From Chryseobacterium suipulveris (GTDB lineage: Bacteria > Bacteroidota > Bacteroidia > Flavobacteriales > Weeksellaceae): 64,000 bases of DNA. The position numbers were made by a program, and so were the translations under genes. The notes beneath the pieces are model-generated. The model did no database searches, had not been told where the DNA came from, and saw only the letters and a list, made by a program, of their open reading frames with translations. Shown here piece by piece: positions 20,268 to 38,509 of the stretch. The DNA lies in NCBI RefSeq assembly GCF_022811685.1, contig NZ_CP094532.1, positions 1,203,501 to 1,267,500 of the forward strand, written 5' to 3'. The stretch's first letter is position 1. The number at the start of each line of letters is the position of its first letter.

Positions 20268-20274
20268 TGAAACT

Positions 20275-24715: not shown

Positions 24716-25141
24716 ATGCTTACACACAAAGTACGCACTTACTCAGTGCACCGCGAAACGCCGAAAATGGCTCTTTACATCCTGAACCGTGGCAGAAATG
24801 CCGGAAAACCCCTGCAGGAACCTTGCCCGAACTGCTTTATCCTGTACTGCAGAACCACGGAAGAAGTGGAAACCTATTATTGGACTTTTTACGCCTTTTG
24901 GAAGCACGGCTTTTTTCATCCGCACCTTTGCGGATCGGTCATCGAAATGCTTCGCCTCTGCGACCTCAAAACGCTGATGCGGAACTTCATCCAGCCTGCC
25001 TTTGAAAAGTCCTGCCAATCGCCCGAAATGATGCTCAAAATCAAGGCAACTTGGGAATTGGAGCAGAAAATCACACAGCAGGCAGCAGCAGTCCAAGAAC
25101 TGCGAAACTCTTTAGTCCGACGTTATTACCTTACCGTTTAA
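24716..25141 (+). CDS. DUF6943-type protein (copy A)
   Basis: The 141-aa protein aligns over its whole length with the product of 56890-57312, including GKPLxxPCPNCFxxxCRxxEE near residues 30-50, HxFLxGSVI-like residues near 80-90, and a C-terminal coiled helix. The family (DUF6943, assigned from memory) has no known function. The two conserved cysteines of PCPNC are not followed by a second pair, so metal binding is uncertain. The ATG at 24716 matches the start of the homologue. It points towards the minus-strand module genes and ends in its own terminator. Confidence 0.72.
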   Translation: MLTHKVRTYSVHRETPKMALYILNRGRNAGKPLQEPCPNCFILYCRTTEEVETYYWTFYAFWKHGFFHPHLCGSVIEMLRLCDLKTLMRNFIQPAFEKSCQSPEMMLKIKATWELEQKITQQAAAVQELRNSLVRRYYLTV

Positions 25142-25143
25142 TT

Positions 25144-25172
25144 TTAGAAAACTTCCTTCGGGAAGTTTTTTT
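25144..25172 (+). terminator. Terminator of DUF6943 copy A
   Basis: AAAACTTCC-TTC-GGGAAGTTTTTTTT is a short GC-capped hairpin with a run of eight T immediately after the stop codon. Confidence 0.8.
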
Positions 25173-25351
25173 TGATCCAAAATTTTCGAAATCCAACACC
25201 AAAAAACACCGCTGACCAGCCGCCGGATGCCAACCCCAAAAAAACTGCACTATAATTCGACTTCATTTCACCATCGTAAGCAGGATAAGGCATACATATT
25301 TCGCCCTTTTAAACGAACGGGTGCAATCCGATGAAATAAGCGGAAGCAAAC

Positions 25352-25380
25352 GAAAAAAACCGTCCGGATGGACGGTTTGC
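25352..25380 (-). terminator. Terminator of the minus-strand membrane-protein operon (copy A)
   Basis: AAACCGTCC-GGAT-GGACGGTTT lies 26 bases beyond the stop of the gene at 25406. The AAAAAAA to its left supplies the T run on the minus strand. Confidence 0.7.
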
Positions 25381-25405
25381 CTTGATTCTTCCAGGAAGAT
25401 AACTG

Positions 25406-25696
25406 CTATTTAACTTCCTGATTTCCAGAATTTTCGCCGGATTCAGTATCCGATTTTCGGGATTTTTCGCCGTACTCTTCCGCGCTGACTGCCGTCTGAC
25501 TGACCGCGCCAATTATAGAACCGCCCAAAAGCAGGTAGCCACCAATGGTAACAATTCCAGCAGGAAGCGCCACCGGAGCAGCGACCAGAACACCGCCAAC
25601 TGCGGAGAGAGCCAGTCCCAGATTTCGCACTATCCTGAACCATTTTGGTGTTGGGGATTCTATTCTGCTGATAAGGTTAAGATTTCTCTGTTTCAT
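25406..25696 (-). CDS. Small two-helix membrane protein (copy A)
   Basis: The 96-aa product has two adjacent hydrophobic segments (residues ~27-48, LGLALSAVGGVLVAAPVALP, and ~50-68, IVTIGGYLLLGGSIIGAVSQ) after an amphipathic N-terminus (PTPKWFRIVRNLG), then a charged tail. The homologue at 57736-57999 keeps the PTPKWFKIIRNIG and GGYLILGGT motifs. Its size and layout resemble phage holins, but the family is not recognised. It overlaps the upstream gene by 20 bases, so the two are likely co-translated. Confidence 0.65.
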   Translation of the reverse strand: MKQRNLNLISRIESPTPKWFRIVRNLGLALSAVGGVLVAAPVALPAGIVTIGGYLLLGGSIIGAVSQTAVSAEEYGEKSRKSDTESGENSGNQEVK

Positions 25697-25949
25697 GATC
25701 TTGATTTTTAAATTGGTTTAACTCTAGTTTTGATACCCTTTGTTCCAGAAAATCGACTTTCTGATTCAGAAGGTCGTAACTGTTTTTGAATTCTGTCTTG
25801 ATGAGCAAAGCCATCGTCTTGACTTCGGTAATGTCCTTTTCCATACTCTTAAAATCGCTGTGCAACTGCCGTATGAAATAGGCAACAATCGCCAAAAGCA
25901 CGGAACTGACAGAGCCAAACAAAACATTTAATGTGATTTCGGTTTGCAT
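25677..25949 (-). CDS. Membrane-anchored coiled-coil protein (copy A)
   Basis: The 90-aa protein has one N-terminal membrane helix (NVLFGSVSSVLLAIVAYFIR) followed by a coiled coil (residues ~30-78, MEKDITEVKTMALLIKTEF, VDFLEQRVSKLE). The equivalent at 58018-58251 is nearly identical in the helix and coil. The layout recalls haemolysin XhlA-like or spanin/holin accessory proteins of phages; that is a comparison, not an assignment. It lies between the DUF5675 gene and the two-helix protein in both islands. Confidence 0.65.
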   Translation of the reverse strand: MQTEITLNVLFGSVSSVLLAIVAYFIRQLHSDFKSMEKDITEVKTMALLIKTEFKNSYDLLNQKVDFLEQRVSKLELNQFKNQDHETEKS

Positions 25950-25961
25950 AATGGATGATTT

Positions 25962-26414
25962 TTAAAACTGAAAATTATTTTCAATACTGATTCCGGAATT
26001 TCCTGAACCCAACACTTTCAAAAGTTTTGGATAGATGATTTTGTAGGCATCTGTTGACTGAAGCACCTGAAAATCGCCATCCTTTTTTATCCAGGAAAGA
26101 CCGCAAAGCGGACAGCCTGCCGTTTCTCCAATTGTGTTTCCAATATGGATGTAAACCGAATGAAAAGTAGGAAGTCTTTCAATCTCAATCATTCCCTTGT
26201 GAATGGCAGGAAATTTCTGCTCATACTTCTCATTCATTCCGCCCCAGGTGTTCAACTTCAATTCAAATGTTCCTGTTGGAATAGCTGTCTGTTTTAAAAT
26301 TTTTACGGATCTGATTTTGTCCTCCAACAGGAAGCACTGAAAAATGCCGTCAATATACAGATGCGAGAGCGTGCTTTGTTTGCCTTCGGCAACCCTTACG
26401 ATTCTTGTTCTCAT
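25962..26414 (-). CDS. DUF5675-family protein (copy A)
   Basis: The 150-aa protein shows the DUF5675 pattern: E...FLLEDKIR, AIPTGTFELKLNTWGGMN, and YIHIGNTIGETAGCPLCG, where the H-x-GN...GC spacing recalls the His/Cys site of L,D-transpeptidase-like folds. No biochemical function is established. The copy at 58264-58716 has the same length and motifs. It follows the 267-aa gene beyond a strong terminator and precedes two small membrane proteins, an order reminiscent of a lysis cassette (inference). Confidence 0.78.
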   Translation of the reverse strand: MRTRIVRVAEGKQSTLSHLYIDGIFQCFLLEDKIRSVKILKQTAIPTGTFELKLNTWGGMNEKYEQKFPAIHKGMIEIERLPTFHSVYIHIGNTIGETAGCPLCGLSWIKKDGDFQVLQSTDAYKIIYPKLLKVLGSGNSGISIENNFQF

Positions 26415-26450
26415 TGTTGATGATTTTTAAAATGAAATTGAAACTTTACA

Positions 26451-26477
26451 AAAAAAGCCTTCCCGAATTGGGAAGGC
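26451..26477 (-). terminator. Strong terminator between the 267-aa and DUF5675 genes
   Basis: GCCTTCCC-GAATT-GGGAAGGC is followed on the minus strand by seven T, just after the stop of the 267-aa gene. The second module has an equivalent at 58741-58771, so a separate transcript for the 267-aa gene is conserved. Confidence 0.85.
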
Positions 26478-26493
26478 CTTAGAAGATTTTATC

Positions 26494-27297
26494 CTAAAAT
26501 ACCTCCTCAATGCGGAGACAGTTTCCGCTTGAAAACGGATAGTACTTGCCGTTGACTTCCTGATAGAATTCAATACCTATGCACTGAACCACGGAAACCT
26601 TATTGTCAAGCACCGGAGCACCGCCTAATTCTGCCGTAATGGTTGCGCCGGGATAATCTGCATTCAGCGGAATATAGTCGGAATAAGACACCACATTCGC
26701 CTCGTTGTTTACAGCATCATCCGCGTCATAAGTTCCGGTTGTGGGATTAAATGAAAAGTCAGACAATACCGCGATTGCGTTAAGCAAACGGAAATGAGTG
26801 GATCCTGAAGGAGCAGAAACTAAAGCAGACGGAGTGAACGGAGCCACCACCAAATCAGCAGATGTTCTTTCCGGAGTGTGCGTTACATCATAAGGAGCGT
26901 TGAAAACGCCGTTGATGGAAACATTCTTGTCAAACTCGAAACCTTCAAGGTACTGTCTTTGTGTGGAGATTTCCACTTTTCTGTAACCTCTCGCTTCGGT
27001 TCCGTCCTCCAGATTGATTTTCTTCATGATAGAAGTTAAACGACCGGTTACTTGTGGATCCGTAAATTTTCCCATAAGAGCGGAGAGAGCCGTTCTTAAC
27101 GATTTACCTACCTTGGCGCAACCGCCAAATTCGTTCATATTTTCGCGTGTTCTTTCGAACTCCGGTGCAGAGTGCACCTGCTGCGCAGTTGGACCGCCGA
27201 CCATACCGGCGAAAAATCCTTCCTGACCTTTGATTTTAAAATGCCTAACGTCACCGATTGTTCCGACGTATTTCATAAGGCCTTTTTGTCTTGCCAT
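26494..27297 (-). CDS. Conserved 267-aa protein of the right-end module (copy A)
   Basis: The product starts MARQKGLMKYVGTIGD and has a conserved N-terminal half (RTRENMNEFGGCAKVGKSLR...LTSIMKKINLEDGTEARGYR) and a beta-rich C-terminal half. It has no signal peptide or membrane segment. The copy at 58784-59587 has exactly the same length and is about two-thirds or more identical by eye. Related proteins beginning MARQKG are, as I recall, common and uncharacterised in Bacteroidota. A private terminator, a separate promoter region and the repeated presence at the island end suggest a highly expressed structural or island-specific protein. I cannot name a function. Confidence 0.75.
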   Translation of the reverse strand: MARQKGLMKYVGTIGDVRHFKIKGQEGFFAGMVGGPTAQQVHSAPEFERTRENMNEFGGCAKVGKSLRTALSALMGKFTDPQVTGRLTSIMKKINLEDGTEARGYRKVEISTQRQYLEGFEFDKNVSINGVFNAPYDVTHTPERTSADLVVAPFTPSALVSAPSGSTHFRLLNAIAVLSDFSFNPTTGTYDADDAVNNEANVVSYSDYIPLNADYPGATITAELGGAPVLDNKVSVVQCIGIEFYQEVNGKYYPFSSGNCLRIEEVF

Positions 27298-27367
27298 TGT
27301 TATAAGCTTTTGAAATTAGAAAAGAGAGAAAAACACTGTTGTCTAGACAGATACAAATTTCATTTAT

Positions 27368-27375
27368 TAACTTTG
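27368..27375 (+). promoter_or_regulatory. Putative -7 box for the SNase-like gene
   Basis: TAACTTTG fits TAnnTTTG and lies 30 bases before the ATG at 27406. The region also carries the divergent promoter of the 267-aa gene, which I could not place. Confidence 0.4.
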
Positions 27376-27405
27376 AAAAAACAATAGTTAAAATACTGTA
27401 AATCA

Positions 27406-27963
27406 ATGAAATACAACGCAACAACAGCAAATCGGGAAGTAAGCGAAGGCAGAAATCCCACAGAAGAAAATAGAAAATATTTTACGATTCCCCACAGCCA
27501 TATCCAGACCTTTTGGATTGTGGAAGAAGTTTTGGACGGGGACAGTTTGAAAGTGAAACAGGAATTCACACAGGAAAGGTGCGAAATTCGGCTTTATGGT
27601 TTGGATGCACCGGAAGTACATTTTTCAAGAAAGATGCGCGAGGATGAAGTGAAAAGCGGCATTCCTGCTTCGCTGCTATTGCAATATGGATTGCTTAGTT
27701 TGGATTATGTTCTGCAGGTGTGTCCACCCGGAACAAGAATAACTCTGATAACAGAACTGGAAAACAGGACGGATTTTTGGCTTCGCGATTTGGCTTATGT
27801 CATTCTGCCTTCCGGCGAATGCCTGAACGAACTCTTAATAAAAAATGGCTTTGCTAAAGCAAGCCATTCATATTATTGTTCATTATTGCCGGAATATCAG
27901 ACCTTAAATTTCCAGGCAAAACAAAATAAGGCAGGAATCTACCTATTTATCGATGTTTTCTAA
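27406..27963 (+). CDS. Staphylococcal-nuclease-like (SNase) protein
   Basis: The 185-aa protein has an SNase-like OB-fold: VEEVLDGDSLKV (residues ~32-43), then EIRLYGLDAPEVHFSRKMRE with the Arg and Asp of the active-site region, and a C-terminal GFAKAS...FQAKQNKAGIYLF block. No signal peptide is evident, so a cytoplasmic nuclease or a non-catalytic SNase fold is possible. It lies at the extreme right end of island A, immediately before the repeat at 27964. The second island lacks it; only its first bases (TTGAAATACAATGCAA at about 59673) look similar. Confidence 0.75.
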   Translation: MKYNATTANREVSEGRNPTEENRKYFTIPHSHIQTFWIVEEVLDGDSLKVKQEFTQERCEIRLYGLDAPEVHFSRKMREDEVKSGIPASLLLQYGLLSLDYVLQVCPPGTRITLITELENRTDFWLRDLAYVILPSGECLNELLIKNGFAKASHSYYCSLLPEYQTLNFQAKQNKAGIYLFIDVF

Positions 27964-27990
27964 TTTGTTGCACCTATGTTATACCTTTTG
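27964..27990. promoter_or_regulatory. GTTGCAC/GTTATAC direct repeat at island A right end
   Basis: GTTGCACC and GTTATACC lie 11 bp apart. The arrangement matches 59850-59868 (also 11 bp) and resembles the 12-bp-spaced sites before both integrases. It lies ~90 bp before the first box of cassette array 2. A recombinase attachment site is inferred. Between it and 28055 there is only AT-rich DNA ending in CTTGTTATAAACCGAT. Confidence 0.5.
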
Positions 27991-28054
27991 GTGTAGGATA
28001 GTAAGAAAATCTAGTGTTTATAATACATCCCAAACAGACTTGTTATAAACCGAT

Positions 28055-28510
28055 GTTATGTGATGTGGCAATTTCGCAGTAATTGGTCAGTTAGATTCAG
28101 TTTCAACGGTATTTTTAGTCAGCAACATTTTAAAATTCAGCGTCAAGTTTGTGAAGTCAGACACGAATAATATTCAGAACGTTAAAATTCAAAAATTTTT
28201 TCGCAAAGGTTTTTCGAGCGAATTTTTGTCAGCGTTTTTTAATTTCAGAAAGTTATTTTCACGCAGAATTTTTTATTCAACAGCGTAAATTTAAGGCGTT
28301 AAATTTTATTTCACGCAGAGATTCCGTTAGTGATGTGGTGTCAGAAATCAGTTTTTTAAGTCAAGTCAGTAATTTATTCAGTCAGTCAAGCAGAAATTGA
28401 ATTCAGACCTTGTTTTCACGCACATTTCGGTCTGGATTCAGTTTCTATTTAATCACTCAAAATCGTGGAATTTATTTCGAAGCGTGATTTCTGATGCCAT
28501 ATCACATAAC
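28055..28510. other. Non-coding cassette, copy 2 (456 bp)
   Basis: The bounds are GTTATGTGATGTGG and CCATATCACATAAC, identical to copy 1. The length is exactly the same (456 bp) and similarity extends throughout, with substitutions scattered evenly. The most conserved block is CACGCAGAGATTCCGTTAG and what follows. No gene is present on either strand. The hairpin on its right is a different subtype from that beside copy 1, so the non-coding body moved independently of that hairpin. Confidence 0.75.
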
Positions 28511-28698
28511 GGTAAGGGGCTTTGCGAGGTGCGGGCTACTGCAACTGAAAGTGGAGAGGAGAACGAAACTCTAGCAAAAACTTTTTCCATTTTTTAAAAT
28601 TACGAAAAAACTAAAAAATGGAAAAGTTTTTTGCGGGTATTTTCTAGAATATTTCTCTGAGATTTCCTTCAACCCCGCATCTTGCAAAACCCATGTTA
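28507..28698. repeat. Cassette hairpin, GGGCTTTGCGAGG subtype, 192 nt
   Basis: Outer arms run from TAACGGTAAGGGGCTTTGCG to CATCTTGCAAAACCCATGTTA. The inner arms CTTTTTCCATTTTTTA and TAAAAAATGGAAAAG pair perfectly. Near-copies occur at 32068 and 60494. Confidence 0.88.
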
Positions 28699-28712
28699 TC
28701 TGCAGGCGTTTT

Positions 28713-29129
28713 TCAGTTTTCTATTATTTCATCAACATTTAAGGCAGTCAAGATTGCAGATATTATATTGCCATTTTTTTCAAATACAATTTCAGCGTCC
28801 ATGTCGTAAAATTCATTTTCTTTATCAGGAATTATAATATTTACAACCTTATAATTTTCAAATTCAATTTGTGAATTAAGATTTTTCAGTTGATTTATGA
28901 TAGAGTTCCAATTATTTTCAATTTTCTTAAAATATTCGGTTTGATAAGTTGATATTTCAGTTCCATTTATAGGAAAAAGCAATTCAATATTTTGACCAAT
29001 ATTTGAATTAATATTTCCTTTGAAATTTTTTGTTCCGTCAAATTCAACTAATGAAAACTTTCCAATACTATTAAAAATCGGATTTGCATTTTCGTTTTTT
29101 GAAGATTTAAAGATGTCAAATATTCCCAT
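28713..29129 (-). CDS. Hypothetical soluble cassette protein
   Basis: This 138-aa acidic protein, starting MGIFDIFKSSKNENANP, has no signal peptide or membrane helix. Its alternating hydrophobic pattern (YKVVNIIIPDKENEFYDMDAEIVFE) suggests a small alpha/beta fold similar to immunity-type proteins, but no family is recognised. It is the only gene of the cassette 28695-29209, whose ends GTTATCTGCAGGCGT and ACGCTTGCAGATAAC are inverted copies with one mismatch. Confidence 0.65.
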   Translation of the reverse strand: MGIFDIFKSSKNENANPIFNSIGKFSLVEFDGTKNFKGNINSNIGQNIELLFPINGTEISTYQTEYFKKIENNWNSIINQLKNLNSQIEFENYKVVNIIIPDKENEFYDMDAEIVFEKNGNIISAILTALNVDEIIEN

Positions 29130-29205
29130 TTTTTATTTTTTAAGATTTCAAAATATTAATTTTTAGTGTCTGTCTTTTGTACACGATTTTTGATACGCTT
29201 GCAGA

Positions 29206-29392
29206 TAACGGAAAAAGTATTTGCGAAGGGCGGGCTAAATTTAACTGAAAGTTCAATTTCGACCGAACGAAGCAAATTGCTTTTTCAGATTGTTAAATTA
29301 CAAAAAAATACAATATGAAAAGCAAGTTGCGACTAAATGCAACTGATAGTTCTATTAAAGATTTAACCCCGCCTTTTGCAAATACTATGTTA
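29206..29392. repeat. Cassette hairpin, GTATTTGCGAAGGG subtype, 187 nt
   Basis: Outer arms are TAACGGAAAAAGTATTTGCG and TTTTGCAAATACTATGTTA. The inner arms GCTTTTTCAGATTGT and ACAATATGAAAAGC pair. The hairpin at 33462-33648 is almost identical in sequence and equal in length. Confidence 0.9.
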
Positions 29393-29404
29393 TACGACGT
29401 AATT

Positions 29405-29902
29405 TTATTTCTTTGTAAATATGCTGTCAACTTTTTTAAAAATTTTCCTTCTTAATTCGTTCTCATTTGAATTCGGCTTTCCTAAAATAAATCCAATCCA
29501 TTTTGTTGAGTTTTTATTTTCTGTTGATAAATAGATAGAGTCAATATTGGATTGATTATTATTTTGAAAAGCAATTTTTCCATCTATTCTGTCAAGAATA
29601 TAAATTTCAGATTTTTCAATATTATTTCGGAATTTATCCATTGCATAATCTGACAATTTAGTTCCATCTTCAAATTTTACAATTTGATTTAGTATACCTT
29701 TTTTTCTTTGAAAATCAACAAATAGAATTCCATTTTTAGGGATTTTATATTCTATGTTTTGTTTATTATAATCAATATTTTTTTTCTGTCGATAAATTAC
29801 AATAAAATTATTCACATTGTTAGGAACAGTAAAAATTTCTTTAGGATTTTCCTTTTTACAACCTAAAAATAATATTAAAAATATTACTAAAATTTTATTC
29901 AA
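29405..29902 (-). CDS. Hypothetical lipoprotein
   Basis: The 165-aa product has a short signal peptide with lipobox (ILVIFLILFLGCKKENP, Cys near residue 15), so it is exported and lipid-anchored. No domain is recognised in the rest. It is the single gene of cassette 29389-29930, whose ends GTTATACGAC and GTCGTATAAC are exact inverted copies. Translation is to the left, as for its neighbours. Confidence 0.68.
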   Translation of the reverse strand: MNKILVIFLILFLGCKKENPKEIFTVPNNVNNFIVIYRQKKNIDYNKQNIEYKIPKNGILFVDFQRKKGILNQIVKFEDGTKLSDYAMDKFRNNIEKSEIYILDRIDGKIAFQNNNQSNIDSIYLSTENKNSTKWIGFILGKPNSNENELRRKIFKKVDSIFTKK

Positions 29903-29926
29903 CGTAGTTTTGGTATTATGTCGTAT

Positions 29927-30052
29927 AACGGTTCTCGGCTTGGCGAAGGTGGGGAATTAGAAGTACAAATGTTTATGTTAGTACAAAAGTTGATTAGAAT
30001 TCCCAATGTTCAAATTTAGCACAAAAGCCCCACTTTTGCCAAACCGATGTTA
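29927..30052. repeat. Short cassette hairpin, 126 nt
   Basis: Outer arms TAACGGTTCTCGGCTTGGCG and TTTTGCCAAACCGATGTTA pair around GGTGGGG/CCCCAC. The inner arms TTTGTGCTAAATTTGAACATTGGGAATT-like sequences pair with GGAATTAGAAGTACAAATG only partly. It is the shortest site of the set. Confidence 0.8.
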
Positions 30053-30068
30053 GCGGTAGTTTTAATTG

Positions 30069-30989
30069 TCAATGTTGAGTATTTGGGTTAATTGTTTCTT
30101 TTTGTATTGATTTACCAAGATATTTCCTAAATAAGAGAGTAATGCAAGATGCCAAAACAAAAGGAAACGTAAGTTGGATAATGTTAAACTTCAGCATTAA
30201 GAAGCTAATGGCAAGCGAAAGTAATACGGCAATTAAAACCCAAAATCCGTCTTTAATTTGGTTGCCTGCAAACATAATAGCGCACAATACAGCATTATAA
30301 CTAAATAGTCCAAGGCTTATGTCGCTAGCAGGTGCAGAGAGGTTGAAGGCAATAACAGCGGATAGCATTGCTCCGGCAAGTCCATATAATGCAGAAATTG
30401 GTGAACTAATAAATACTGCGATAAAAAAGAGCATCCCAGAAACTAAACTACCTTGAAAAATTACTTGTCCATAGCCCTTGAAAACAAAAGTAAAATTGTT
30501 ATCAGTAGAGGCAGTTGCCACTGGTAGTTCTGAAATTATACCTGCGAAATAATTATTAGCAAATAAAAGGATAATCCAAGTTACCAAAACAAAAGGCAGT
30601 GTAAAAGCAGGTATTTTTCGTTTTATAAAAAGGTGCTGCAACACAGTTGCTAACGCAGAGCCGATAATAATAATTATCCAACTTATCAAAACTTGTTTTA
30701 GAAATAGTATGGCTGCAACACCAACCAATGCCGCACTAAAACCGTAAAGTCCTTTATCAATTACTGATTTTTCATATTTCAGCAGTAAGGCAGTAGTAGT
30801 TCCACACACTACTGCTAAAAGCGCAGCAGCACCCATTATAAATGAACCATAGAAAATGCCAATGAGAAAAAGTAATCCTGTAACGGCATTTTCCTGGAGC
30901 ATTATTTGTCCAAGTCCTTTTAGCACAATAAGCATTGAATAAATGAGCTTTTCGACTACTCCATTTCTTATTTCAAATTTTCTAAGCAT
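30069..30989 (-). CDS. Urea transporter family protein
   Basis: The 306-aa integral membrane protein shows the two-fold repeat of bacterial urea channels: GLYGFSAALVGVAAILF (residues ~80-96) with PAFTLPFVLVTWI, and later GLFSYNAVLCAIMFAG with QLTFPFVLASCI. About ten hydrophobic segments are present. It would pass urea or a similar small amide down its gradient. It is the downstream gene of a two-gene cassette (30049-32071) and overlaps the upstream lipoprotein gene by one base. No urease gene is present in the window. Confidence 0.85.
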   Translation of the reverse strand: MLRKFEIRNGVVEKLIYSMLIVLKGLGQIMLQENAVTGLLFLIGIFYGSFIMGAAALLAVVCGTTTALLLKYEKSVIDKGLYGFSAALVGVAAILFLKQVLISWIIIIIGSALATVLQHLFIKRKIPAFTLPFVLVTWIILLFANNYFAGIISELPVATASTDNNFTFVFKGYGQVIFQGSLVSGMLFFIAVFISSPISALYGLAGAMLSAVIAFNLSAPASDISLGLFSYNAVLCAIMFAGNQIKDGFWVLIAVLLSLAISFLMLKFNIIQLTFPFVLASCITLLFRKYLGKSIQKETINPNTQH

Positions 30990-31999
30990 TATTTAGCATT
31001 GAAAGATGGTTTATTTAAATATAGTTTTTCGATTTCGTATGCTAAAATCTTTAAATCTTGTTTCATCAAAGTAACATATGCTTCCGTTTGGTCTAACATA
31101 TCGGCTCTATTTTGTAAATCATCAGCCCGATACTGTCCTCCTTTGCCAAAATATACCTCGATCTTCTTATTATTTGAATTTTCTTTCTCACTTGAAATTT
31201 GCCCAAAGAGCATCCACTTATCTACTAACAATTTAGCTAATGATTTCTCGTTATTATTAGGGTTTTCATAAGTTAGATAATACCAAATAGAGGACGGAAA
31301 ATAGTTAGAAACGTCTGAATTTTTCCAAATATCTGTTAGTGCATTGTCATTATGATAGAATTCTATTTTTCTTTTATTGATTAACATCAAAGCACCTAAT
31401 GTTGCTTCCGTAAGACTAATACCAATTGTTAGACCAGTTGTAATCTTTTCATTAGAACTATTGTTTGATATTACTTCTGTTACGACCGCACCAGCAGCAC
31501 CTACAATTATTGAACCTATAATCAATCCTTTTTCGGTTTTTCCTTCTCTTTCTTTTAAGTAATATGCAAATTGGTTTGCACGTTCTTCTTCACAGTCAAG
31601 TTCACTTGCTAAGGCTGATATTTCAAGAGAAGCAATATTTAATTTTTGATTGATATGTTGCGAATACTCAAGTAAGTCAACCTTCTTTTCTAACGTGGGG
31701 TTTGAGCTATAGTCAATTTGTAAATGTGTATATTTTGTTAACACATCAATTAAACCAATGGCATTGGCGATATTAAGCGATTGGTCGGAAAACCTGTTTG
31801 TCAGAACTGTATCAAGTTTAAGTTCGTGAAAAGGTTTAGGTACATCGTCTTTGGTATATGGAGAAACAGTCTGCTTATTGCAGTAACTCTTATCGAATTG
31901 TAATGCTTGTTGTGAATTTTTGAGTCCTGCACAGGATGTCAAGACTAAATTCATAGCAACGATTGTCCAAATAGCGAAATTCTTTTTTATAATATTCAT
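30989..31999 (-). CDS. Hypothetical lipoprotein paired with the urea transporter
   Basis: The 336-aa protein has a signal peptide with lipobox (VAMNLVLTSCAGLKNSQ, Cys near 23), a glycine-rich hydrophobic segment at ~155-172 (GLIIGSIIVGAAGAVVTEVI) and a second hydrophobic patch (GLTIGISLTEATLGALMLI). No family is recognised. It is co-transcribed with the urea transporter gene, whose start overlaps its stop. The cassette ends are GTTAGCGGTA and TACCGCTAAC. Confidence 0.68.
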   Translation of the reverse strand: MNIIKKNFAIWTIVAMNLVLTSCAGLKNSQQALQFDKSYCNKQTVSPYTKDDVPKPFHELKLDTVLTNRFSDQSLNIANAIGLIDVLTKYTHLQIDYSSNPTLEKKVDLLEYSQHINQKLNIASLEISALASELDCEEERANQFAYYLKEREGKTEKGLIIGSIIVGAAGAVVTEVISNNSSNEKITTGLTIGISLTEATLGALMLINKRKIEFYHNDNALTDIWKNSDVSNYFPSSIWYYLTYENPNNNEKSLAKLLVDKWMLFGQISSEKENSNNKKIEVYFGKGGQYRADDLQNRADMLDQTEAYVTLMKQDLKILAYEIEKLYLNKPSFNAK

Positions 32000-32067
32000 T
32001 TGTCTTTCGGGTCTGTCATTTGTATGTTGTCGTTATGGTGAGTGGTATTGTCTGTAAAAATTACCGC

Positions 32068-32251
32068 TAACGGGAAAGGGCTTTGCGAGGTGCGGGCTAC
32101 TGCAAATGAAAGTGGAGAGGAGAACCAATCTCTAGCAAATACCATTTTCATTTTTTCAAATTTACAAAAAAAATGAAATGGTTTTTTGCGGGTATTTTCT
32201 ACAAATTTTCTGAGATTTCCTTCAACCCCGCATCTTGCAAAACCCATGTTA
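32068..32251. repeat. Cassette hairpin, GGGCTTTGCGAGG subtype, 184 nt
   Basis: Same subtype as 28507-28698: TAACGGGAAAGGGCTTTGCG ... CTTGCAAAACCCATGTTA, with an apical stem ACCATTTTCATTTTTT/AAAAAATGAAATGGT. Confidence 0.88.
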
Positions 32252-32273
32252 TCTGCTGTTATTTTTCTAGTTT

Positions 32274-33020
32274 TTATTTTCCATCTCTTATAATTTGAAA
32301 TATTATTCCGACAAGCATAGACAAAAACATATATGAAATTACAACTCCTAAACTTCTAATAACTAAAGTTTTTTTTGAGTATCCGTAATCTGAAAAGAAT
32401 TGCCTATAATACCAAAATGCATAAATTATTGTCAAAAGACTAATCAAACTATATATTATCATTAGGACTTTAATGTTTGCATAGAATATTGTAAGTATGA
32501 CAAATAATAATGTGATTAAAGATTCCGCAACAGTTTTATACGAATTTAAGACAAAGTGTTCGGTTAAATTAAGTTTTGATTTTCTAAACCAAAGAAAACT
32601 GCAAATCGCATAGAATGGAATTGTTAAAAGCAAAGTGGTTTTTGGATATTCCTTTGTAAATACTTCAAGTGCATTCATTGCATTTTTTCCACTTTCAGGC
32701 ATCAAGTCAGCAAGTTTTATTTGAGTATATTCTCCTAAAAAATGGGTAATACCTAGTGTAATTAACAATAATGTTACAAAACTAAAATATCCTACTCTTT
32801 TACCTTGGATAAATTCTCTGATACTATGTCCTGGTCTTGTAAATAACTCCTTAATAGTGAAAAGAATTCCTCTATCAACATGCCAAAATCCATGAATTAA
32901 ATCGTGTTCTATAAAGTGTTTGAACGAATATCTGTGAACACTTGCTTTTTGTCCACAATTTGAACAAAAATTTTCGGAAATTATGCGTCCACAATTTAGA
33001 CAGTTATTAGTTTTCTCCAT
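32274..33020 (-). CDS. DUF3667-domain membrane protein
   Basis: The 248-aa product begins with a zinc-ribbon (CLNCGRIISENFCSNCGQ, two CxxC pairs) followed by the DUF3667 block (RYSFKHFIEHDLIHGFWHVDRGILFTIKELFTRPG) and about five membrane helices. The function is unknown. It is the downstream gene of a two-gene cassette and its start shares one base with the stop of the upstream gene at 33020. Confidence 0.85.
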   Translation of the reverse strand: MEKTNNCLNCGRIISENFCSNCGQKASVHRYSFKHFIEHDLIHGFWHVDRGILFTIKELFTRPGHSIREFIQGKRVGYFSFVTLLLITLGITHFLGEYTQIKLADLMPESGKNAMNALEVFTKEYPKTTLLLTIPFYAICSFLWFRKSKLNLTEHFVLNSYKTVAESLITLLFVILTIFYANIKVLMIIYSLISLLTIIYAFWYYRQFFSDYGYSKKTLVIRSLGVVISYMFLSMLVGIIFQIIRDGK

Positions 33021-33277
33021 TAAAATTTTAAATTTCTTTCTTTTAGTAGTTCTTCAACTTCTTTAAATTTTTTATTTTTTGGGTCTTTTACCATTTTGTA
33101 AATAAAAAATAAAGGAATAAGCATTACAAATCCGAAAGAACCTCTGTAAATGCTAAAAAAAACTATTCCAAATAAAACTCCAATAAAAAGTGCGTTTGTA
33201 ATTGAAAACGATTTTAATTTTTTTACTTCTTCTAATAATTCTTGGCTCGTGAGTTGTGAAACCTCTTTATTTCTCAT
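33020..33277 (-). CDS. Small two-helix membrane protein
   Basis: This 85-aa product has an N-terminal amphipathic stretch (SQELLEEVKKLKSFS), two hydrophobic segments (NALFIGVLFGIVFFSIY and FGFVMLIPLFFIYKMV) and a charged tail. Similar small proteins are widespread in Bacteroidota without known function. It is the first gene of cassette 32248-33465 (ends GTTATCTGCT and AGCAGATAAC). The 185 bases upstream carry its promoter region, where no clear TAnnTTTG box is visible. Confidence 0.65.
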   Translation of the reverse strand: MRNKEVSQLTSQELLEEVKKLKSFSITNALFIGVLFGIVFFSIYRGSFGFVMLIPLFFIYKMVKDPKNKKFKEVEELLKERNLKF

Positions 33278-33461
33278 CTAAATTATTGTTTTTTCATTTT
33301 GTTAGACAGTTTGGCTATAATTCTGACTAACATTAAATTTAAATACTGATAATCAAATAGTTACATGTTCTCATTGTTTAACCATTTGATATCCAAAAAT
33401 AGTGAAAATTTCTTCGTTAGCGGCTAAAAACAACTCCGTTTTCGAGTAGGGGAATAGCAGA

Positions 33462-33648
33462 TAACGGAAAAAGTATTTGCGAAGGGCGGGCTAAATAGAA
33501 CAAAAAGTTCAATTTCGACCGAACGAAGCAAATTGCTTTTTCAGATTGTTAAATTACAAAAAAATACAATATGAAAAGCAAGTTGCGACTAAATGCAACT
33601 AATAGTTCTATTATATATTCAACCCCGCCTTTTGCAAATACTATGTTA
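33462..33648. repeat. Cassette hairpin, GTATTTGCGAAGGG subtype, 187 nt
   Basis: Almost identical to the hairpin at 29206-29392 and of the same length. Differences cluster in the bulges between the outer and inner stems (GAACAAAAAGTTC versus TTAACTGAAAGTTC). Confidence 0.9.
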
Positions 33649-33662
33649 TCTGCCGTTTTTTT

Positions 33663-34170
33663 CTATTTTTCAAAGTATTCAGAAATATTTTTTCTGAAAG
33701 TAATTAGAGTAATTCCAAGAATTAAATTCAATAAAGAAACGGATAAATTTAAATAATTATTTGGATTCCTAGGAAACATTGGATTGTTACTCATTTTAAA
33801 TTCTTGATACAATAATGAAATTAAAGTTGTTATATTTTCTATAATTAAAAATCCGCCTATTATAAAAAGTCCGATTGTGAGAATATTTTTTGCGTCAAAG
33901 TTGTTTATCCCGATTTTGTCATTCTCAAAGCCTTTGTCAAGTCTAAACAAGTTTATTATTTTATCTGGAAATCTAATCAGAAAGTAAAGGATTGCGATGG
34001 AAAGCAGGACAGTAATGAAAATATAAATTAAAGTCCCAATTTTTCCACTGAATTCAGAATCAAATCCTAAAAAAGAAATTTGAGAAGGAATTACGCTAAA
34101 AATTACTTCAATAAAGAAATATAGTCCAATTATTTTTATTAAAATTCTAAAAAAAATCTCTATTTAACAT
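33663..34170 (-). pseudogene. Cassette membrane protein broken at an 8-base homopolymer
   Basis: The ATG at 34168-34170 starts MLNRDFF and then meets a stop. Removing one base from the A8 run 34149-34156 (T8 on the coding strand) joins it to a continuous frame encoding RILIKIIGLYFFIEVIFSVI and onwards to the stop at 33663, ~168 aa with four hydrophobic segments. No ATG lies early in the long frame, so the restored version is the likelier original. Slipped-strand change (possibly phase-variable) or sequencing error are the alternatives. It is the only gene of cassette 33645-34196, with ends GTTATCTGCC and GGCAGATAAC. Confidence 0.65.
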
Positions 34171-34192
34171 ACTGTTGGTTTAAAATGGCAGA

Positions 34193-34379
34193 TAACGGAA
34201 AAAGTATTGGCGAAGTGCGGGAAAAGAAGCTGAAAATGAACAACTTAAACTGCAATAAGCAAAAACTTTTTTCTTTTTGCTAAATTACAAAATTGGGCGA
34301 AATAAAAAAGTTTTTTGCGACAAAATATTACGAAAATTTCAACGGAAACTTTCTCCCGCATTTTGCCAATACTATGTTA
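34193..34379. repeat. Integrase-proximal hairpin of array 2, 187 nt
   Basis: TAACGGAAAAAGTATTGGCG pairs with ATTTTGCCAATACTATGTTA. The apical stem is GCAAAAACTTTTTTCTTTT against AAAAAGTTTTTTGCGA-type sequence. The closing box GTTATTAAAAG resembles GTTATTAC at the same place in array 1. Bases 34380-34614 hold the integrase leader and the repeat at 34490. Confidence 0.88.
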
Positions 34380-34489
34380 TTAAAAGTATTAAATCGTATG
34401 TAGCTTTTTGCATTTAAATACATAATTATCAATAAGTTATAAAATTATAAAGAGCGAAATAATGCAAAAAAACGCAACGAAATGTTAGG

Positions 34490-34516
34490 TTTGTTGTACC
34501 AAATGTTGTACCTTTG
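34490..34516 (+). promoter_or_regulatory. GTTGTAC direct repeat and promoter of integrase 2
   Basis: GTTGTACC occurs twice, 12 bp apart (34493 and 34505), and the second runs into TACCTTTG (34509-34516), a TAnnTTTG box. The following ATCAGGTTGCA is also shared with the site before integrase 1. Promoter function is likely; attachment-site function is inferred. Confidence 0.6.
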
Positions 34517-34614
34517 TATCAGGTTGCACCGCTTTGAAATAGCTGATTTATAAAGGGTTTCATCGTTTTGCACTCGATTGTTTTTTTAGTACAACAAATA
34601 TAATACTTTTTCTT

Positions 34615-35832
34615 ATGGCTTCGATAAAATTAGTGCTTCGGACAAACCAAGAAGACAAAACAGGTCATAGCCCTTTATACATAAGACTTATAAAAGATAG
34701 AAAAGCCAAATTTGTTGCCACAGGCGTAAAGCTGAAGCACAACGAATGGGACGATGACAAACAGAAGATAAAGAAGAACCACACCAATAGTGCGAGAATG
34801 AACGCCTTTCTTGCCCAGAAAATTGCCGATGCCGAAGGAACAGTTGCAGACCACGAACGCAAAAGAAAATCCGTATCAGCCCGAAAACTCAAAGAAGCAA
34901 TAAAAGGTAAGGATATGGCAAACTTCTTTGAATATGCTTACAATCGTTGCGAGCGTATCAAAGGAACGGTATCAGTTGCCACCTATAAAAATTACAAACA
35001 GTATGTAGCCAAGTTTGAAAAATTCATTGGACACAGGGATATTTATTTCGATGATATTACTGTTACGATGCTGAAAGACTATATCAATTATATGTCTAAC
35101 AATTTGAAAAATGGAGCAACTACGGTACACTATTCTTTATTGATTTTATCCGTAATGTTTCGTGATGCTCAAAGGGAAGATGTAATTGAAGAAAACATTT
35201 ATCCGTTTTCAAAAGTTCGTGTAAAACGTGATAAAGGCAAACGATTATTTTTGAGCAAAGAACAAGTAGAAAAGTTACGCAATTTTAAAATCGAATACAC
35301 AGGAAAAGACGAAGTCTTTAGAGATATGTTCATTTTTTCGGTGTATGCAGGTGGCTTACGTTTTAGTGATGTAGTGAGCTTGAAATGGGAAAACTATAAT
35401 GAAAAAGAGCAACGCATTACAAAAACCATTCGCAAAACAGGAAGAACCCACAGTTTTAAAATCGGCCAGACGGCAATAGATATTCTGAACCAGTACAAAA
35501 CAGCTATATCACAATCAAGTGATTTTGTTTTCCCGATATTGGAAGATGTAGAAAGATTTGATACCGATACCGATTATCAGGCACATATCATCAATGCAAA
35601 AAACATTCTATGCGGTCAGAAGTTAAGAAGAATAGGTAAGGATATGGAATTGCCTTTTTCGTTATCATTCCATTTAAGCCGTCATACATTCGCTACAAAT
35701 GCTCTTAACAACGGTATGCGCATTGAATATGTTTCAAAGCTGTTAGACCATTCAGATATCGGCATTACGCAGATTTACGCCAAAGTGATTAGCGAGGAAT
35801 TAGATAAAGCCGTGGATAAGTATATAAATTGA
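34615..35832 (+). CDS. Tyrosine recombinase/integrase 2 (SAM-5 type)
   Basis: Same length (405 aa) and domain order as integrase 1, with the complete active site in the same positions: R249 (GGLRFSD), K274, H353-x-x-R356, H379 and Y388. Roughly 60% of residues match by eye, most in the catalytic half, while the arm-binding N-terminus is more diverged. It diverges from cassette array 2 and opens island B, as integrase 1 does island A. The two enzymes probably recognise related but not identical sites. Confidence 0.92.
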   Translation: MASIKLVLRTNQEDKTGHSPLYIRLIKDRKAKFVATGVKLKHNEWDDDKQKIKKNHTNSARMNAFLAQKIADAEGTVADHERKRKSVSARKLKEAIKGKDMANFFEYAYNRCERIKGTVSVATYKNYKQYVAKFEKFIGHRDIYFDDITVTMLKDYINYMSNNLKNGATTVHYSLLILSVMFRDAQREDVIEENIYPFSKVRVKRDKGKRLFLSKEQVEKLRNFKIEYTGKDEVFRDMFIFSVYAGGLRFSDVVSLKWENYNEKEQRITKTIRKTGRTHSFKIGQTAIDILNQYKTAISQSSDFVFPILEDVERFDTDTDYQAHIINAKNILCGQKLRRIGKDMELPFSLSFHLSRHTFATNALNNGMRIEYVSKLLDHSDIGITQIYAKVISEELDKAVDKYIN

Positions 35833-35892
35833 AGAAACCATAAGCATTACCCAATATTTTAATTACTAAATTTACCCTATAAATTTCATACC

Positions 35893-37239
35893 GTGAGCAA
35901 AGTTTTAATCATAGATGACGAAGAAAAAATAAGAACCCTGCTTTCCAAAATCATTACGTTGGAAGGGTTTGACGTGCTACAAGCAGGCGACATCAAAAGC
36001 GGTTTAAAAAAACTGGAAACAGCTGATGTTGATGCCGTGATATGCGATGTAAAACTACCAGACGGAAGCGGTGTTGAAGCCACTAAAAATATCAAAGAGA
36101 AATATCCCTCAGTAGAAATCATATTACTCACTGCCTACGGCAATATTGCAGATGGCGTTCAGGCAATGAAAAACGGAGCTTTTGATTACATTACCAAAGG
36201 CGATGACAATAACAAAATCATTCCCCTGCTCTATAAAGCAACCGAAAAAGTAACACTCTCCAAACGGGTAATGCAGTTAGAAAAGCTGTTAGGCAATAAA
36301 TATTCCTTTGATAACATCATCGGAAAATCCAAAACGCTTGGTGCTTCCATTGATGCCGCCAAAAAAGTGGCAGATAGTGAAACAACCGTTTTGCTTACCG
36401 GAGAAACCGGAACGGGTAAGGAGGTTTTTGCACAAGCCATTCACAATGCGAGTAATAGGAACAAACAGAATTTTGTAGCCGTAAATTGTTCTGCGTTTAG
36501 CAAAGAATTGTTGGAAAATGAATTATTCGGGCATAAAGCAGGTGCGTTCACAGGTGCGGTAAAGGATAGTAAAGGAATTTTTGAGGAAGCAAACCACGGG
36601 ACGGTTTTCTTAGATGAAATTGGTGAAATGCCTTTAGATTTACAGGCAAAGCTCTTACGGGTTTTAGAAACAGGAGAATTTCTAAAAGTAGGTGATAGTA
36701 AACCAACCAAGGTAAACGTCCGTATTATTGCTGCCACTAATAGAAATTTACAACAAGAAGTAGAGGAAGGACACTTCCGTGAAGATTTGTTTTACCGAAT
36801 TGCCGTCTTTCAGATTTCACTACCCCCACTCAGAGAACGGGTTATTGATATAGAAGAACTGGCGATATTCTTTCTTCGCACATTTACAAATAAGACGAAC
36901 AAAAAAATCAATACCATTTCAAAAAACTATCTCGAAGCACTGAAACAACATACGTGGAAAGGCAATATCAGAGAACTCAAAAACGTAATTGAGCGTAGCG
37001 TAATACTTACAGGTAATACAGAATTAGAAGAAGATAGTCTGCCATTGGAACTACAACGTCTTGGCACTTTAGATAACCGTGAAAAAACACTATCTGCCTT
37101 TGAACTTGCAAGCGTAGAAAAAGTTCATATTCAAAAAGTGTTGAACTATACCAATGGCAATAAAACAGAAACAGCAAAACTGCTCAATATTGCCTTAACT
37201 ACTCTATACCGGAAGATTGACGAGTACCATATAAAATAA
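35893..37239 (+). CDS. NtrC-type sigma-54-dependent response regulator
   Basis: The 448-aa product has a receiver domain (residues 3-120, phospho-acceptor D52 in CDVKLPDG), a sigma-54-interacting AAA+ domain with Walker A TGETGTGKE and the GAFTGA loop, and a C-terminal Fis-type HTH (ETAKLLNIALTTLYRKIDEY). The start codon is GTG at 35893. It lies next to the kdp genes, so it probably answers the split KdpD/histidine kinase encoded downstream and activates kdp from a sigma-54 promoter. That differs from enteric bacteria, where KdpE is an OmpR-type regulator. It is followed by its own terminator. Confidence 0.88.
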   Translation: MSKVLIIDDEEKIRTLLSKIITLEGFDVLQAGDIKSGLKKLETADVDAVICDVKLPDGSGVEATKNIKEKYPSVEIILLTAYGNIADGVQAMKNGAFDYITKGDDNNKIIPLLYKATEKVTLSKRVMQLEKLLGNKYSFDNIIGKSKTLGASIDAAKKVADSETTVLLTGETGTGKEVFAQAIHNASNRNKQNFVAVNCSAFSKELLENELFGHKAGAFTGAVKDSKGIFEEANHGTVFLDEIGEMPLDLQAKLLRVLETGEFLKVGDSKPTKVNVRIIAATNRNLQQEVEEGHFREDLFYRIAVFQISLPPLRERVIDIEELAIFFLRTFTNKTNKKINTISKNYLEALKQHTWKGNIRELKNVIERSVILTGNTELEEDSLPLELQRLGTLDNREKTLSAFELASVEKVHIQKVLNYTNGNKTETAKLLNIALTTLYRKIDEYHIK

Positions 37240-37261
37240 CCCTTTCAAAACGATAGTATTT

Positions 37262-37287
37262 ACCCTTTCAAAACGAAAGGGTTTTTT
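37262..37287 (+). terminator. Terminator after the response regulator gene
   Basis: ACCCTTTC-AAAAC-GAAAGGGT is followed by TTTTTT. It separates the regulator from the kdp transcript, so kdp must start from a promoter in 37290-37400. A GG-N11-GC pair (37358-37372) is close to, but one base off, the sigma-54 spacing. Confidence 0.8.
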
Positions 37288-37400
37288 ATTTTCCCTATAT
37301 TGATTTTATATGTTAAATAATTCAAAATCAATATATTAAAATATTTTTGGTTCTGGTGGAATAGAAATTGGCATAAGAAGAATATAAATAAAATATTCTT

Positions 37401-37697
37401 ATGACAACGGAACACGAACAAAAAAGCGAATTTCAAAAAATTCAACAATTAGAGGTTGAAGCCCTCGATGCCATCTTTAAGGGGCAAAAGAAAAAAGTTG
37501 TAAACCTGTTTGGTAAAGCCGAACAATTATTTCAGAAAGGGAGCAACTATACGCGCACAATCATTTCCAACACATTTATTCTTCCCTTAACCCAACTGCT
37601 CGAAATGAATTACAGTTGGGGTAAAGAATATCTCATCTTGTTTCCCGGACAGCTCAAACAAGAGTATTGCAGGCAAATCTATTCATCAGGAATTTAA
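37401..37697 (+). CDS. Small kdp-linked protein, paralogue 1
   Basis: The 98-aa soluble protein shares its core with the product of 37789-38175: a KGSNYTRTIISNTFILPLTQLL segment matches RGNDYIRYIIENLFVRSFEG. The pair may belong to the DUF7674 family, which I recall from kdp loci of Bacteroidota, but I cannot confirm it. It starts 20-30 bases after a small AATAT stem, so translation control is possible. The role in potassium transport is unknown. Confidence 0.65.
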   Translation: MTTEHEQKSEFQKIQQLEVEALDAIFKGQKKKVVNLFGKAEQLFQKGSNYTRTIISNTFILPLTQLLEMNYSWGKEYLILFPGQLKQEYCRQIYSSGI

Positions 37698-37711
37698 TAA
37701 CTATACAAACA

Positions 37712-37792
37712 ATGGTAATACTATTAATAATCGTAGGTGTAGCACTTTTCGCATTCTTTTTTTTACTAATCAGATTATTTGAAAAGATATGA
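37712..37792 (+). CDS. 26-aa single-helix peptide, KdpF-like
   Basis: The frame encodes one membrane helix (MVILLIIVGVALFAFFFLL) plus a short charged tail. Its stop overlaps the next start in ATGA (37789-37792), indicating translational coupling. Its size and position resemble KdpF; a second, more typical KdpF follows. Confidence 0.6.
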   Translation: MVILLIIVGVALFAFFFLLIRLFEKI

Positions 37793-38175
37793 AATCTAAA
37801 CAGAAAATCAATGAAGACCGGGCGGCTGTTTATTTAGCTGAACATCATAAAGAAATCAGCAATGAAATTAGGGAACTGTATGCTCATAAAAACTTCGCTG
37901 GTATTCTTCAGGCAGTTGTAAATCTGATTAAATGCTTACTCGAAAAGGGAGAATTTACAAAAATTACAAAACACATAAAATACATTGGGTGGATATATCA
38001 GAGAGGAAATGACTACATCAGGTATATTATTGAAAATCTATTTGTACGCTCATTTGAAGGCATACGAAAACGTTGTTCTACAAACCAGTGGCAGCAACTA
38101 TATACTGAAATTCCAAAATCTTTTCAGATGGTATATATAAAACAAAACAACATCATTCAAACAATAAAAATATGA
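37789..38175 (+). CDS. Small kdp-linked protein, paralogue 2
   Basis: The 128-aa soluble helical protein is a longer relative of the 98-aa product at 37401 (shared GNDYIRYIIENLF-type block near residues 66-78). It overlaps the small membrane peptide genes on both sides by 4 bases (ATGA junctions at 37789 and 38172), so the string is one tightly coupled operon ahead of kdpA. The function is unknown. Confidence 0.65.
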   Translation: MKSKQKINEDRAAVYLAEHHKEISNEIRELYAHKNFAGILQAVVNLIKCLLEKGEFTKITKHIKYIGWIYQRGNDYIRYIIENLFVRSFEGIRKRCSTNQWQQLYTEIPKSFQMVYIKQNNIIQTIKI

Positions 38176-38249
38176 TAGCATTATTCATCATCGCCATTGC
38201 AGTATTTTTCTATATGTGCTACGTGCTGATTAAACCAGAAAAATTTTAA
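38172..38249 (+). CDS. kdpF: KdpF, small subunit of the potassium-transporting ATPase
   Basis: This 25-aa hydrophobic peptide (MIALFIIAIAVFFYMCYVLI, then KPEKF) has the KdpF length and the typical end. KdpF stabilises the KdpABC complex in the membrane. It overlaps the preceding gene by 4 bases. Confidence 0.8.
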   Translation: MIALFIIAIAVFFYMCYVLIKPEKF

Positions 38250-38277
38250 AAACAGCATCCATTAAAAAAACCGGGAA

Positions 38278-38379
38278 ATGAGGAAAAAAATAAAAGAAGT
38301 GTTTACAATCATCTTCTGGATACTTGTGCTCATATCTTTTATATACCTCCTATATATAAAATTAAACATCCTTTTCTAA
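38278..38379 (+). CDS. 33-aa single-helix peptide in the kdp operon
   Basis: The frame starts MRKKIKEVF and continues with one membrane helix (TIIFWILVLISFIYLLYI). Its stop overlaps the next ATG (TAATG). Recognition rests only on position, coupling and hydrophobicity. Confidence 0.5.
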   Translation: MRKKIKEVFTIIFWILVLISFIYLLYIKLNILF

Positions 38380-38504: not shown

Positions 38505-38509
38505 AAGAT

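Follow-up and report, generated by a model that had tools for sequence, protein, structure and literature searches.

A hairpin-ended gene-cassette array of Chryseobacterium suipulveris, read as an integron-like lineage of Weeksellaceae

Between positions 28055 and 34379 of the 64,000-nucleotide (nt) stretch of Chryseobacterium suipulveris DNA analyzed here (the window; C1:1203501-1267500 of a 3.04-Mb single-contig genome), five gene cassettes and one non-coding cassette alternate with six long imperfect hairpins. The locus raises the question of whether these units are moved as cassettes are moved in integrons, the gene-capture devices known for spreading antibiotic resistance, which serve as our frame of comparison, and if so by which recombinase. 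We read it as part of an integron-like lineage of Weeksellaceae. With a probability of roughly 0.8, this is an integron-like gene-cassette system in which a tyrosine recombinase, termed YR3, inserts and excises circular cassettes, and there is a strong case that it would work like an integron at the level of DNA rearrangement. The six sites of the window form the middle of one 139-kb array, larger than first noted. They and their cassettes are as follows.

28055..28510, no strand: non-coding cassette; on its left side, only the last nucleotides of a hairpin arm, beside integrative element 1
28507..28698, + strand: attC-like hairpin, 192 nt; identical copy at C1:1287849
28695..29209, - strand: cassette with open reading frame (ORF) 28713-29129 (138 aa, without Pfam match); its copy at C1:1288037 is 100% identical and has another right hairpin
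29206..29392, + strand: attC-like hairpin, 187 nt
29389..29929, - strand: cassette with ORF 29405-29902 (165 aa); 100% identical copy at C1:1327468
29926..30052, + strand: attC-like hairpin, 127 nt
30049..32071, - strand: two-gene cassette, urea transporter PF03253 (30069-30989) and 336-aa protein (30989-31999)
32068..32251, + strand: attC-like hairpin, 184 nt
32248..33465, - strand: two-gene cassette, DUF3667 protein (32274-33020) and 85-aa protein (33020-33277)
33462..33648, + strand: attC-like hairpin, 187 nt
33645..34196, - strand: cassette with ORF 33663-33950 (95 aa)
34193..34379, + strand: attC-like hairpin, 187 nt, at the left junction of integrative element 2

Cassettes, boxes and hairpins

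The original prediction, made from the letters of the window, had placed five gene cassettes, one non-coding cassette and six hairpins here, and exact 10-nt box pairs were found at each of these places. Its hairpin lengths of 192, 187, 184, 187 and 187 nt were borne out, while the hairpin given as 126 nt measures 127 nt. The TAACGG and ATGTTA ends it described hold for the six hairpins of the window; elsewhere, some sites end in CAAC/GTTG rather than TAAC/GTTA.

Sites were located by a script using motif and stem rules and were checked by box pairs, for which 10-mers beginning GTTA were sought 100-4000 bases apart. A strict motif scan of 220 kb returned 51 sites on the + strand, none on the reverse complement and none in five of five shuffles; one of the 51, at 1280056, had been given a wrong short end, its true length being 188 nt. 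With looser rules, the count rose to 76 candidate sites between 1194096 and 1332670, against 3 on the opposite strand. Two of the 76 lie inside elements and were taken as false, which leaves 74 sites, 72 of them with a box-supported cassette on at least one side. The array holds 66 box-supported cassettes with 55 distinct bodies, and the median identity of its hairpins is 70%. It is broken by two integrative elements of ~26 kb each, which sit in hairpin sites, and is otherwise continuous, since the cassette start box at either right junction pairs over 10 nt with the site that follows. When one hairpin was compared with the genome by blastn, 39 of 40 matches fell in C1:1.19-1.33 Mb, all on the + strand; the remaining copy lies off the arrays at C1:1591029-1591227, on the minus strand. 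Over 21 arrays, there are 211 sites on the forward strand and 12 on the reverse, several of the 12 short or weak. The hairpin and box pattern is confirmed to lie beyond chance.

The end boxes follow the cassette rather than the hairpin, as had been predicted. In this array, boxes match over at least 8 nt in 65/69 cassettes shorter than 3.5 kb, compared with 12/76 pairs across hairpins and 6.1 with permuted partners, the two false sites being still included in these counts. Over the 21 arrays, the corresponding values are 150/177, 21/211 and 22, so random partners do not match equally well, the outcome that had been named in advance as damaging to the idea. The boxes are also unlike GTTRRRY, the consensus of the integron R box, which fits 5/151; the consensus GTTRBNNGNNGT fits 112/151.

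Duplicated cassettes define the unit that moves. Twelve pairs have identical bodies and different neighbors; the left hairpin is identical in 10 and the right in none. The prediction had proposed looking for the same cassette beside different neighbors, and this search succeeded within one genome. In the five cleanest pairs, exact identity extends over 657-735 nt, starts at TAAC (within 0-2 nt) and breaks on the right 2-32 nt beyond the next TAAC, the hairpins that follow starting alike there. These breaks therefore mark a minus-strand unit of a gene plus the hairpin that follows it, exchanged at CG^TT as in integrons. Because the cassette breaks on the TAAC side (CCG^TT on the minus strand), gene orientation is of the integron type, and the anomaly of orientation raised in the prediction disappears. 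Its hairpin-less array end, at 28055, is likewise not an end but a junction with an inserted element. Where cassettes contain a clear ORF, 127/138 read away from the integrase; 12/150 contain none.

The hairpins fall mostly into two size classes, 89 measuring 116-135 nt and 100 measuring 171-200 nt, with a stem score of at least 11 in 202/211. After 11 of the 211 had been dropped by stem score or length, the + strand, which is the bottom strand by integron convention, folded more stably in 186/200 sites and the minus strand in 13, with a mean difference of 3 kcal/mol (DNA parameters). This bias comes from two G.T pairs in the stem of the + strand, seen at position 14 in 126 sites and at position 17 in 138, the T.G arrangement being almost absent there. 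A wobble code seems likely to tell the strands apart. In classical integrons, selection of the bottom strand depends mainly on extrahelical bases (PMC2727003).

Several copies of the 456-nt non-coding cassette are present in the array, those at 28055-28510 and 1568-2023 being identical at 392/456 positions. It also occurs at full length, from GTT to AAC, in four other genomes (G162, G017, G178, G056; 81-95% identical), and may be a promoter, small RNA or regulatory cassette. Gene-less cassettes are reportedly the subject of one published paper. Sharing between genomes amounted to one pair (81% identity) among 137 box-supported cassettes from 97 sources, namely the window's own region and loci chosen by genes of the YR2 type described below. 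Of the 58 cassette ORFs of this array, 54 were scanned against Pfam and PADLOC (three crossed the locus edge and one was a duplicate). They matched 28 Pfam families, most of those shown in one protein each, and some of them matched PADLOC models, among these PD-T7-1, PDC-S14, PD-T7-5 and a type IV restriction enzyme; such a match does not prove a defense function.

YR3, its attI site and its distribution

The last box of the array is followed by TCTCAAATATACGC, and the recombinase gene comes 137 nt beyond.

C1:1333201-1334298, ~66 kb right of the window, at the array end: YR3 tyrosine recombinase, 366 aa

The original prediction had noted that no integron integrase (IntI) is present. This is strictly right, but a tyrosine recombinase, YR3, is present outside the window. 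In an alignment of YR3-like proteins, R223, K248, H312, R315 and Y347, which we take together with H338 to be the catalytic residues, are present in 16/16 rows, and H338 in 15/16. Compared with IntI, the N-terminus carries ~90 extra residues, with weak hints of DUF5710/HARP-like similarity.

YR3-like genes elsewhere in the family mostly come with such sites. Twenty loci were fetched from matches in the family with contig size considered, and one (L240) was left out because its upstream sequence was too short. At the remaining 19, from 18 other genomes of the family, at least one site lies upstream in 16 and at least two in 13; box-supported cassettes are found at 10, and up to 26 sites in ~18.5 kb. 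The attI motif is present at 21/25 YR3 loci, six of the 21 being copies of one platform that are 97-100% alike. It includes TAnnTTTG, the -7 element of Bacteroidota, reading into the first cassette; the consensus is given in PMC2483708. An exact -33 box at a spacing of 18-20 nt is found in 9/21 attI loci, with a chance expectation of ~0.0015 per sequence window.

The clearest view of the junction comes from a second copy of the recombinase in the same genome, YR3b (C1:2421499). Together with its upstream sequence, it is 99.8-100% identical in five other genomes (G032, G027, G126, G004, G089), and the 213 nt 5' of the gene lack any mismatch in six genomes of five genera. The loci of YR3b in other genomes are L187, L188, L189, L244 and L297. 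Identity of the platform stops between AAC and ACTCAAATATA, where four different first cassettes start, one of them common to G027, G126 and G004. Near-identical platforms of different species thus carry different cassettes. Downstream, identity continues for at least 0.3-1.5 kb, and therefore the platform itself has moved between genera; its near-identity indicates a recent spread across five of them.

YR3-like genes were found in 60/120 genomes of the family (E<=1e-60), in 9/395 genomes of the phylum (profile, E<=1e-100) and in 9/246 genomes of the order (1e-110), eight of the nine in the same family. At ten distant loci, a search for generic box pairs returned two chance-like pairs 1.2 and 4.0 kb off and none next to the recombinase. 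In the form described here, the system is established for Weeksellaceae only. The proposal of an undescribed cassette-capture system of Bacteroidota is supported, having withstood the tests set against it as far as they could be run. A literature search, whose scope excluded preprints and most subscription papers, found no published description. One paper lists Bacteroidota among the phyla that have integrons (PMC8618304). As a separate observation, a plasmid of Chryseobacterium sp. SNU WT5 (NZ_CP041688.1:16035-17048) encodes a 38.9%-identical protein annotated as "site-specific tyrosine recombinase/integron integrase". The prediction had also suggested comparison with Rfam models such as Flavo-1, which we take to be one of the Rfam families; over the 64-kb window, no family reached its gathering score.

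Elements at the opposite hairpin end

On both sides of the six sites, the array is interrupted by an integrative element, beyond which it resumes.

1379..1571, + strand: attC-like hairpin, 193 nt, in the left segment of the same array (motif scan)
1568..2023, no strand: non-coding cassette with boxes GTTATGTGAT/ATCACATAAC (exact 10-nt box pair)
2020..2207, + strand: attC-like hairpin at the left junction of element 1; imperfect, stem score 9.8, below the threshold of the later scan
2205..28055, + strand: integrative element 1, at the hairpin G^TT end; ends uncertain by ~10 nt
34377..59938, + strand: integrative element 2, at the hairpin G^TT end; ends uncertain by ~10 nt
59938..60497, no strand: 560-nt cassette where the array resumes, with start box GTTGGCAGAA at the right junction of element 2
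60495..60683, + strand: attC-like hairpin
63304..63488, + strand: attC-like hairpin; the array continues to C1:1332670, then attI and YR3 outside the window

The start box GTTGGCAGAA pairs with the next site over 10 nt. The two elements, ~25.6 and 25.9 kb long, have a 405-aa recombinase on the left and a DUF5675 gene plus a 267-aa gene on the right, so that both ends are common and the cargo differs; the att site is near the integrase gene. Element 1 carries the recombinase YR1 (2444-3661), genes resembling type I restriction-modification systems and its DUF5675 gene near the right end. Element 2 carries YR2 (34615-35832), the kdp potassium-transport operon, a VapE-like protein and its DUF5675 gene at 58264-58716; it also holds a 10-nt GTTA box pair at 45325-45551, without a TAACGG...ATGTTA hairpin. 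YR1 and YR2 consist of Arm-DNA-bind_5, SAM_5 and catalytic domains. At two further loci (L068, L126), platforms that are 99.7-99.9% identical break at the right hairpin end, immediately before TGTTATTAAAAG, beside different hairpin arms; in MKVF01000021.1 (L068), 7.1 kb of the YR2 platform match with 99.93% identity. Elements 1 and 2 therefore appear to be separate integrative elements that use the other end of the hairpin as their insertion site. Hairpins of this kind also precede YR2-type genes in contigs of Flavobacterium and others. At Flavobacterium-type loci (L102, L108, L110, L112, L116 and others), a conserved end reading TATATACAAGTTATCTACAACTTTT, or close to it, lies ~236 nt upstream of the YR2-type gene and perhaps represents another class of target site.

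A third kind of recombinase element encodes a XerC-like protein of 316-343 aa with an SPLD tail, begins with TTGAACTAA and sits between G and TT at the hairpin's right end. Across five stretches we counted 19 of its starts, of which the majority, though not every one, follow a hairpin arm; the starts include C1:1316090, 2394887, 2399294, 2414520 and 2423442, in addition to the following example.

G000:C1:2418351-2420776: third-kind element, 2426 nt; copy 100% identical in three genomes

A 778-nt stretch common to the second locus of this genome, G126 and G027 was considered as a gene cassette and rejected, being part of this 2426-nt element.

Mechanism, rival explanations and known systems

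In the mechanism we propose, YR3 would be a dedicated tyrosine recombinase that catalyzes cassette exchange. Read on the minus strand, a cassette consists of a TTR-box, the gene, the complementary box AAC and the hairpin, up to CG. New cassettes would enter attI (CGTATATTTGAGW^GTT), which lies 127-212 nt away from the start of the integrase, and additional ones would enter at the CG^TT end of a hairpin. Pairing of the two boxes, 10-12 nt each, would restore a perfect site in the putative circular intermediate. Because the boxes stand 75-193 nt apart on duplex DNA, the substrate is probably the folded "bottom" (+) strand, marked by the two fixed G.T wobbles; one strand would be exchanged and then resolved by replication. 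The first cassette would be driven by a Bacteroidota promoter within attI (TTTG-N18-20-TAnnTTTG). A more detailed version combines several proposals, and we give the combination an even chance: a Xer/XerA-like recombinase lacking the IntI-specific insertion (I2 helix) would recombine folded single-stranded cassette ends, the two wobbles would mark the strand, the extra N-terminal domain would read the structure and at least two further families of recombinase elements would dock at the opposite end. Of this picture, the sequences themselves show the unit boundaries, the attI junction and the uniform gene orientation, the different cassettes upon a practically unchanged platform and the recent duplication into new neighborhoods, and the strand asymmetry of the hairpins.

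Several observations weigh against this reading. The reading comes from sequence comparison, and stem complementarity was used in finding the sites, hence it is not independent proof of folding. Among the cassettes counted above, 27/177 have no 8-nt box match, which we put down to missed sites or decay, and 2/12 duplicate pairs, both including the copy at 1320826, share neither hairpin. The promoter fits exactly in only nine of the 21 attI loci. Three YR3-like loci (L249, L250, L258) have no site within ~18.6 kb, though L258 has the attI motif; conversely, the motif is missing at L246, L249, L250 and L252, though L252 has 21 sites. No box-supported cassette is present at 6 of the 16 loci with sites, three of the six being single-site loci. 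Within the family, G118 and G048 (~40% identity) were found without an array, G118 having been read over only 271 nt upstream. Homologues outside the family had arrays at 0/8 loci, of which one was read over only 895 nt and one over 8.1 kb upstream, with a lone 69-nt candidate in G338; two such homologues (G494, G328) fall inside the tree branch of array-linked YR3 proteins.

An ordinary IntI-class integron whose diverged integrase has lost the insertion is an unlikely rival. The layout is the same, with attI beside the integrase, G^TT joining, complementary boxes within cassettes and one-way genes, and YR3 shares with IntI a C-terminal SPxD (SPLD in YR3). Its best NCBIfam match is NF040815, "site-specific tyrosine recombinase/integron integrase", and the second is TIGR02249, the integron-integrase model; both scores lie below their cut-offs (203.6 against 220, and 189.2 against 265 bits), and YR1 and YR2 reach only 48 and 51.3 bits with the latter. 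IntI above the cut-off is common elsewhere in the phylum (105/395 genomes, only one listed in the same class) and was found in 0/31 relatives. Comparison of structures by Foldseek places IntI 2a3v first, nearly tied with the archaeal Xer 4a8e; by sequence, the best match in the Protein Data Bank (PDB) is 4a8e, with 144 bits versus 115 for IntI. TIGR02249 matches to YR3-like genes skip positions ~178-242, the match of YR3 to 2a3v splits at 182/248 versus 270/293 in YR3, and the insertion I2 is missing from 6/6 YR3-like rows shown in the alignment. According to the literature, a profile of the IntI-specific region separates IntI from other recombinases (PMC9668308), and this additional domain was not found in any other protein (PMC7790495). 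In a tree, the 12 IntI rows (IntI1 and 11 from the phylum) group in a single branch (100/99) that includes none of 21 YR3-like rows; given its long branches and unknown root, the tree speaks for a position outside the sampled IntI and not for the origin of YR3. Membership in the IntI class thus fails on the integrase cut-off, the IntI-specific domain, the clade and the GTTRRRY box.

YR1 and YR2 themselves could be the cassette integrases, with the hairpin 237 nt upstream as their attI. GTTA ends do lie 224-238 nt upstream at 67/80 homologous loci, compared with 27/557 control windows, and motif-and-stem sites number 61 in 500 kb upstream and 0 in 675 kb downstream. This idea was dropped and is now improbable: the YR2-type platforms of L068 and L126 have their break at the right hairpin end, whereas cassettes break at the left, the two elements have common ends around different cargo, at both right junctions the box of the next cassette is paired with the site after it, and it is the YR3 loci that carry arrays. 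Shuffling solely by homologous recombination between repeated hairpins, without a site-specific recombinase, would suit the similarity of the hairpins and the two duplicate pairs that share the body alone. It is very improbable, as left breaks fall at AAC rather than being scattered through the hairpins, the attI junction does not vary and matching boxes go with the cassette. The many similar copies would, on the face of the sequence, also suit hairpins that are terminators beside genes or resemble miniature inverted-repeat transposable elements, but we find this scarcely credible; the boxes form inverted repeats that enclose the gene instead of direct repeats around the hairpin, the blastn matches are confined, with the one exception, to one region and strand, and sites cluster upstream of YR3-like genes.

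The recombinase linked to the array lacks the part taken to define integrons, which points to a possible second evolutionary route to such a device. With over 70 sites, clean GTT junctions and a recombinase without I2, this array makes it testable whether I2 is needed for the recombination of folded single strands, or how else it can be achieved. IntegronFinder is said to require an IntI-specific profile (PMC9668308), and the account of version 2.0 reports, for Bacteroidetes proper, one complete integron, that of Salinibacter (PMC9024848); such searches therefore probably miss this class. The pool of cassette genes in Weeksellaceae, some of which match anti-phage models, would then probably go uncounted.

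Among known systems, the closest likeness is to large sedentary chromosomal integrons, those of the Vibrio superintegron type. Common to both are an attI beside a divergently transcribed tyrosine recombinase, tandem cassettes with imperfect hairpin ends, the G^TT junction, complementarity of the boxes within a cassette, one-way genes, and gene-less and duplicated cassettes. The system differs from them in a recombinase that lacks the IntI-specific insertion and has ~90 extra N-terminal residues, in boxes of the form GTTRBNNGNNGT rather than GTTRRRY, in hairpins of mostly ~125 and 187 nt and in strand asymmetry by G.T wobbles. YR3 resembles XerA, XerC and XerD in its catalytic and core-binding domains and in its best PDB sequence match, but unlike them it stands at cassette arrays with an attI of its own and has an extra N-terminal domain and the SPLD tail. 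The elements of YR1 and YR2 have the domains, and the att site close to the integrase gene, of CTnDOT/IntDOT-type integrative elements of Bacteroidota, to judge by the Pfam domains of the two recombinases; their target, unlike that of such elements, is the end of a cassette hairpin. With class 1 mobile integrons, finally, the YR3b platform shares its practical identity across genera while carrying different cassettes, on the basis of a different integrase.

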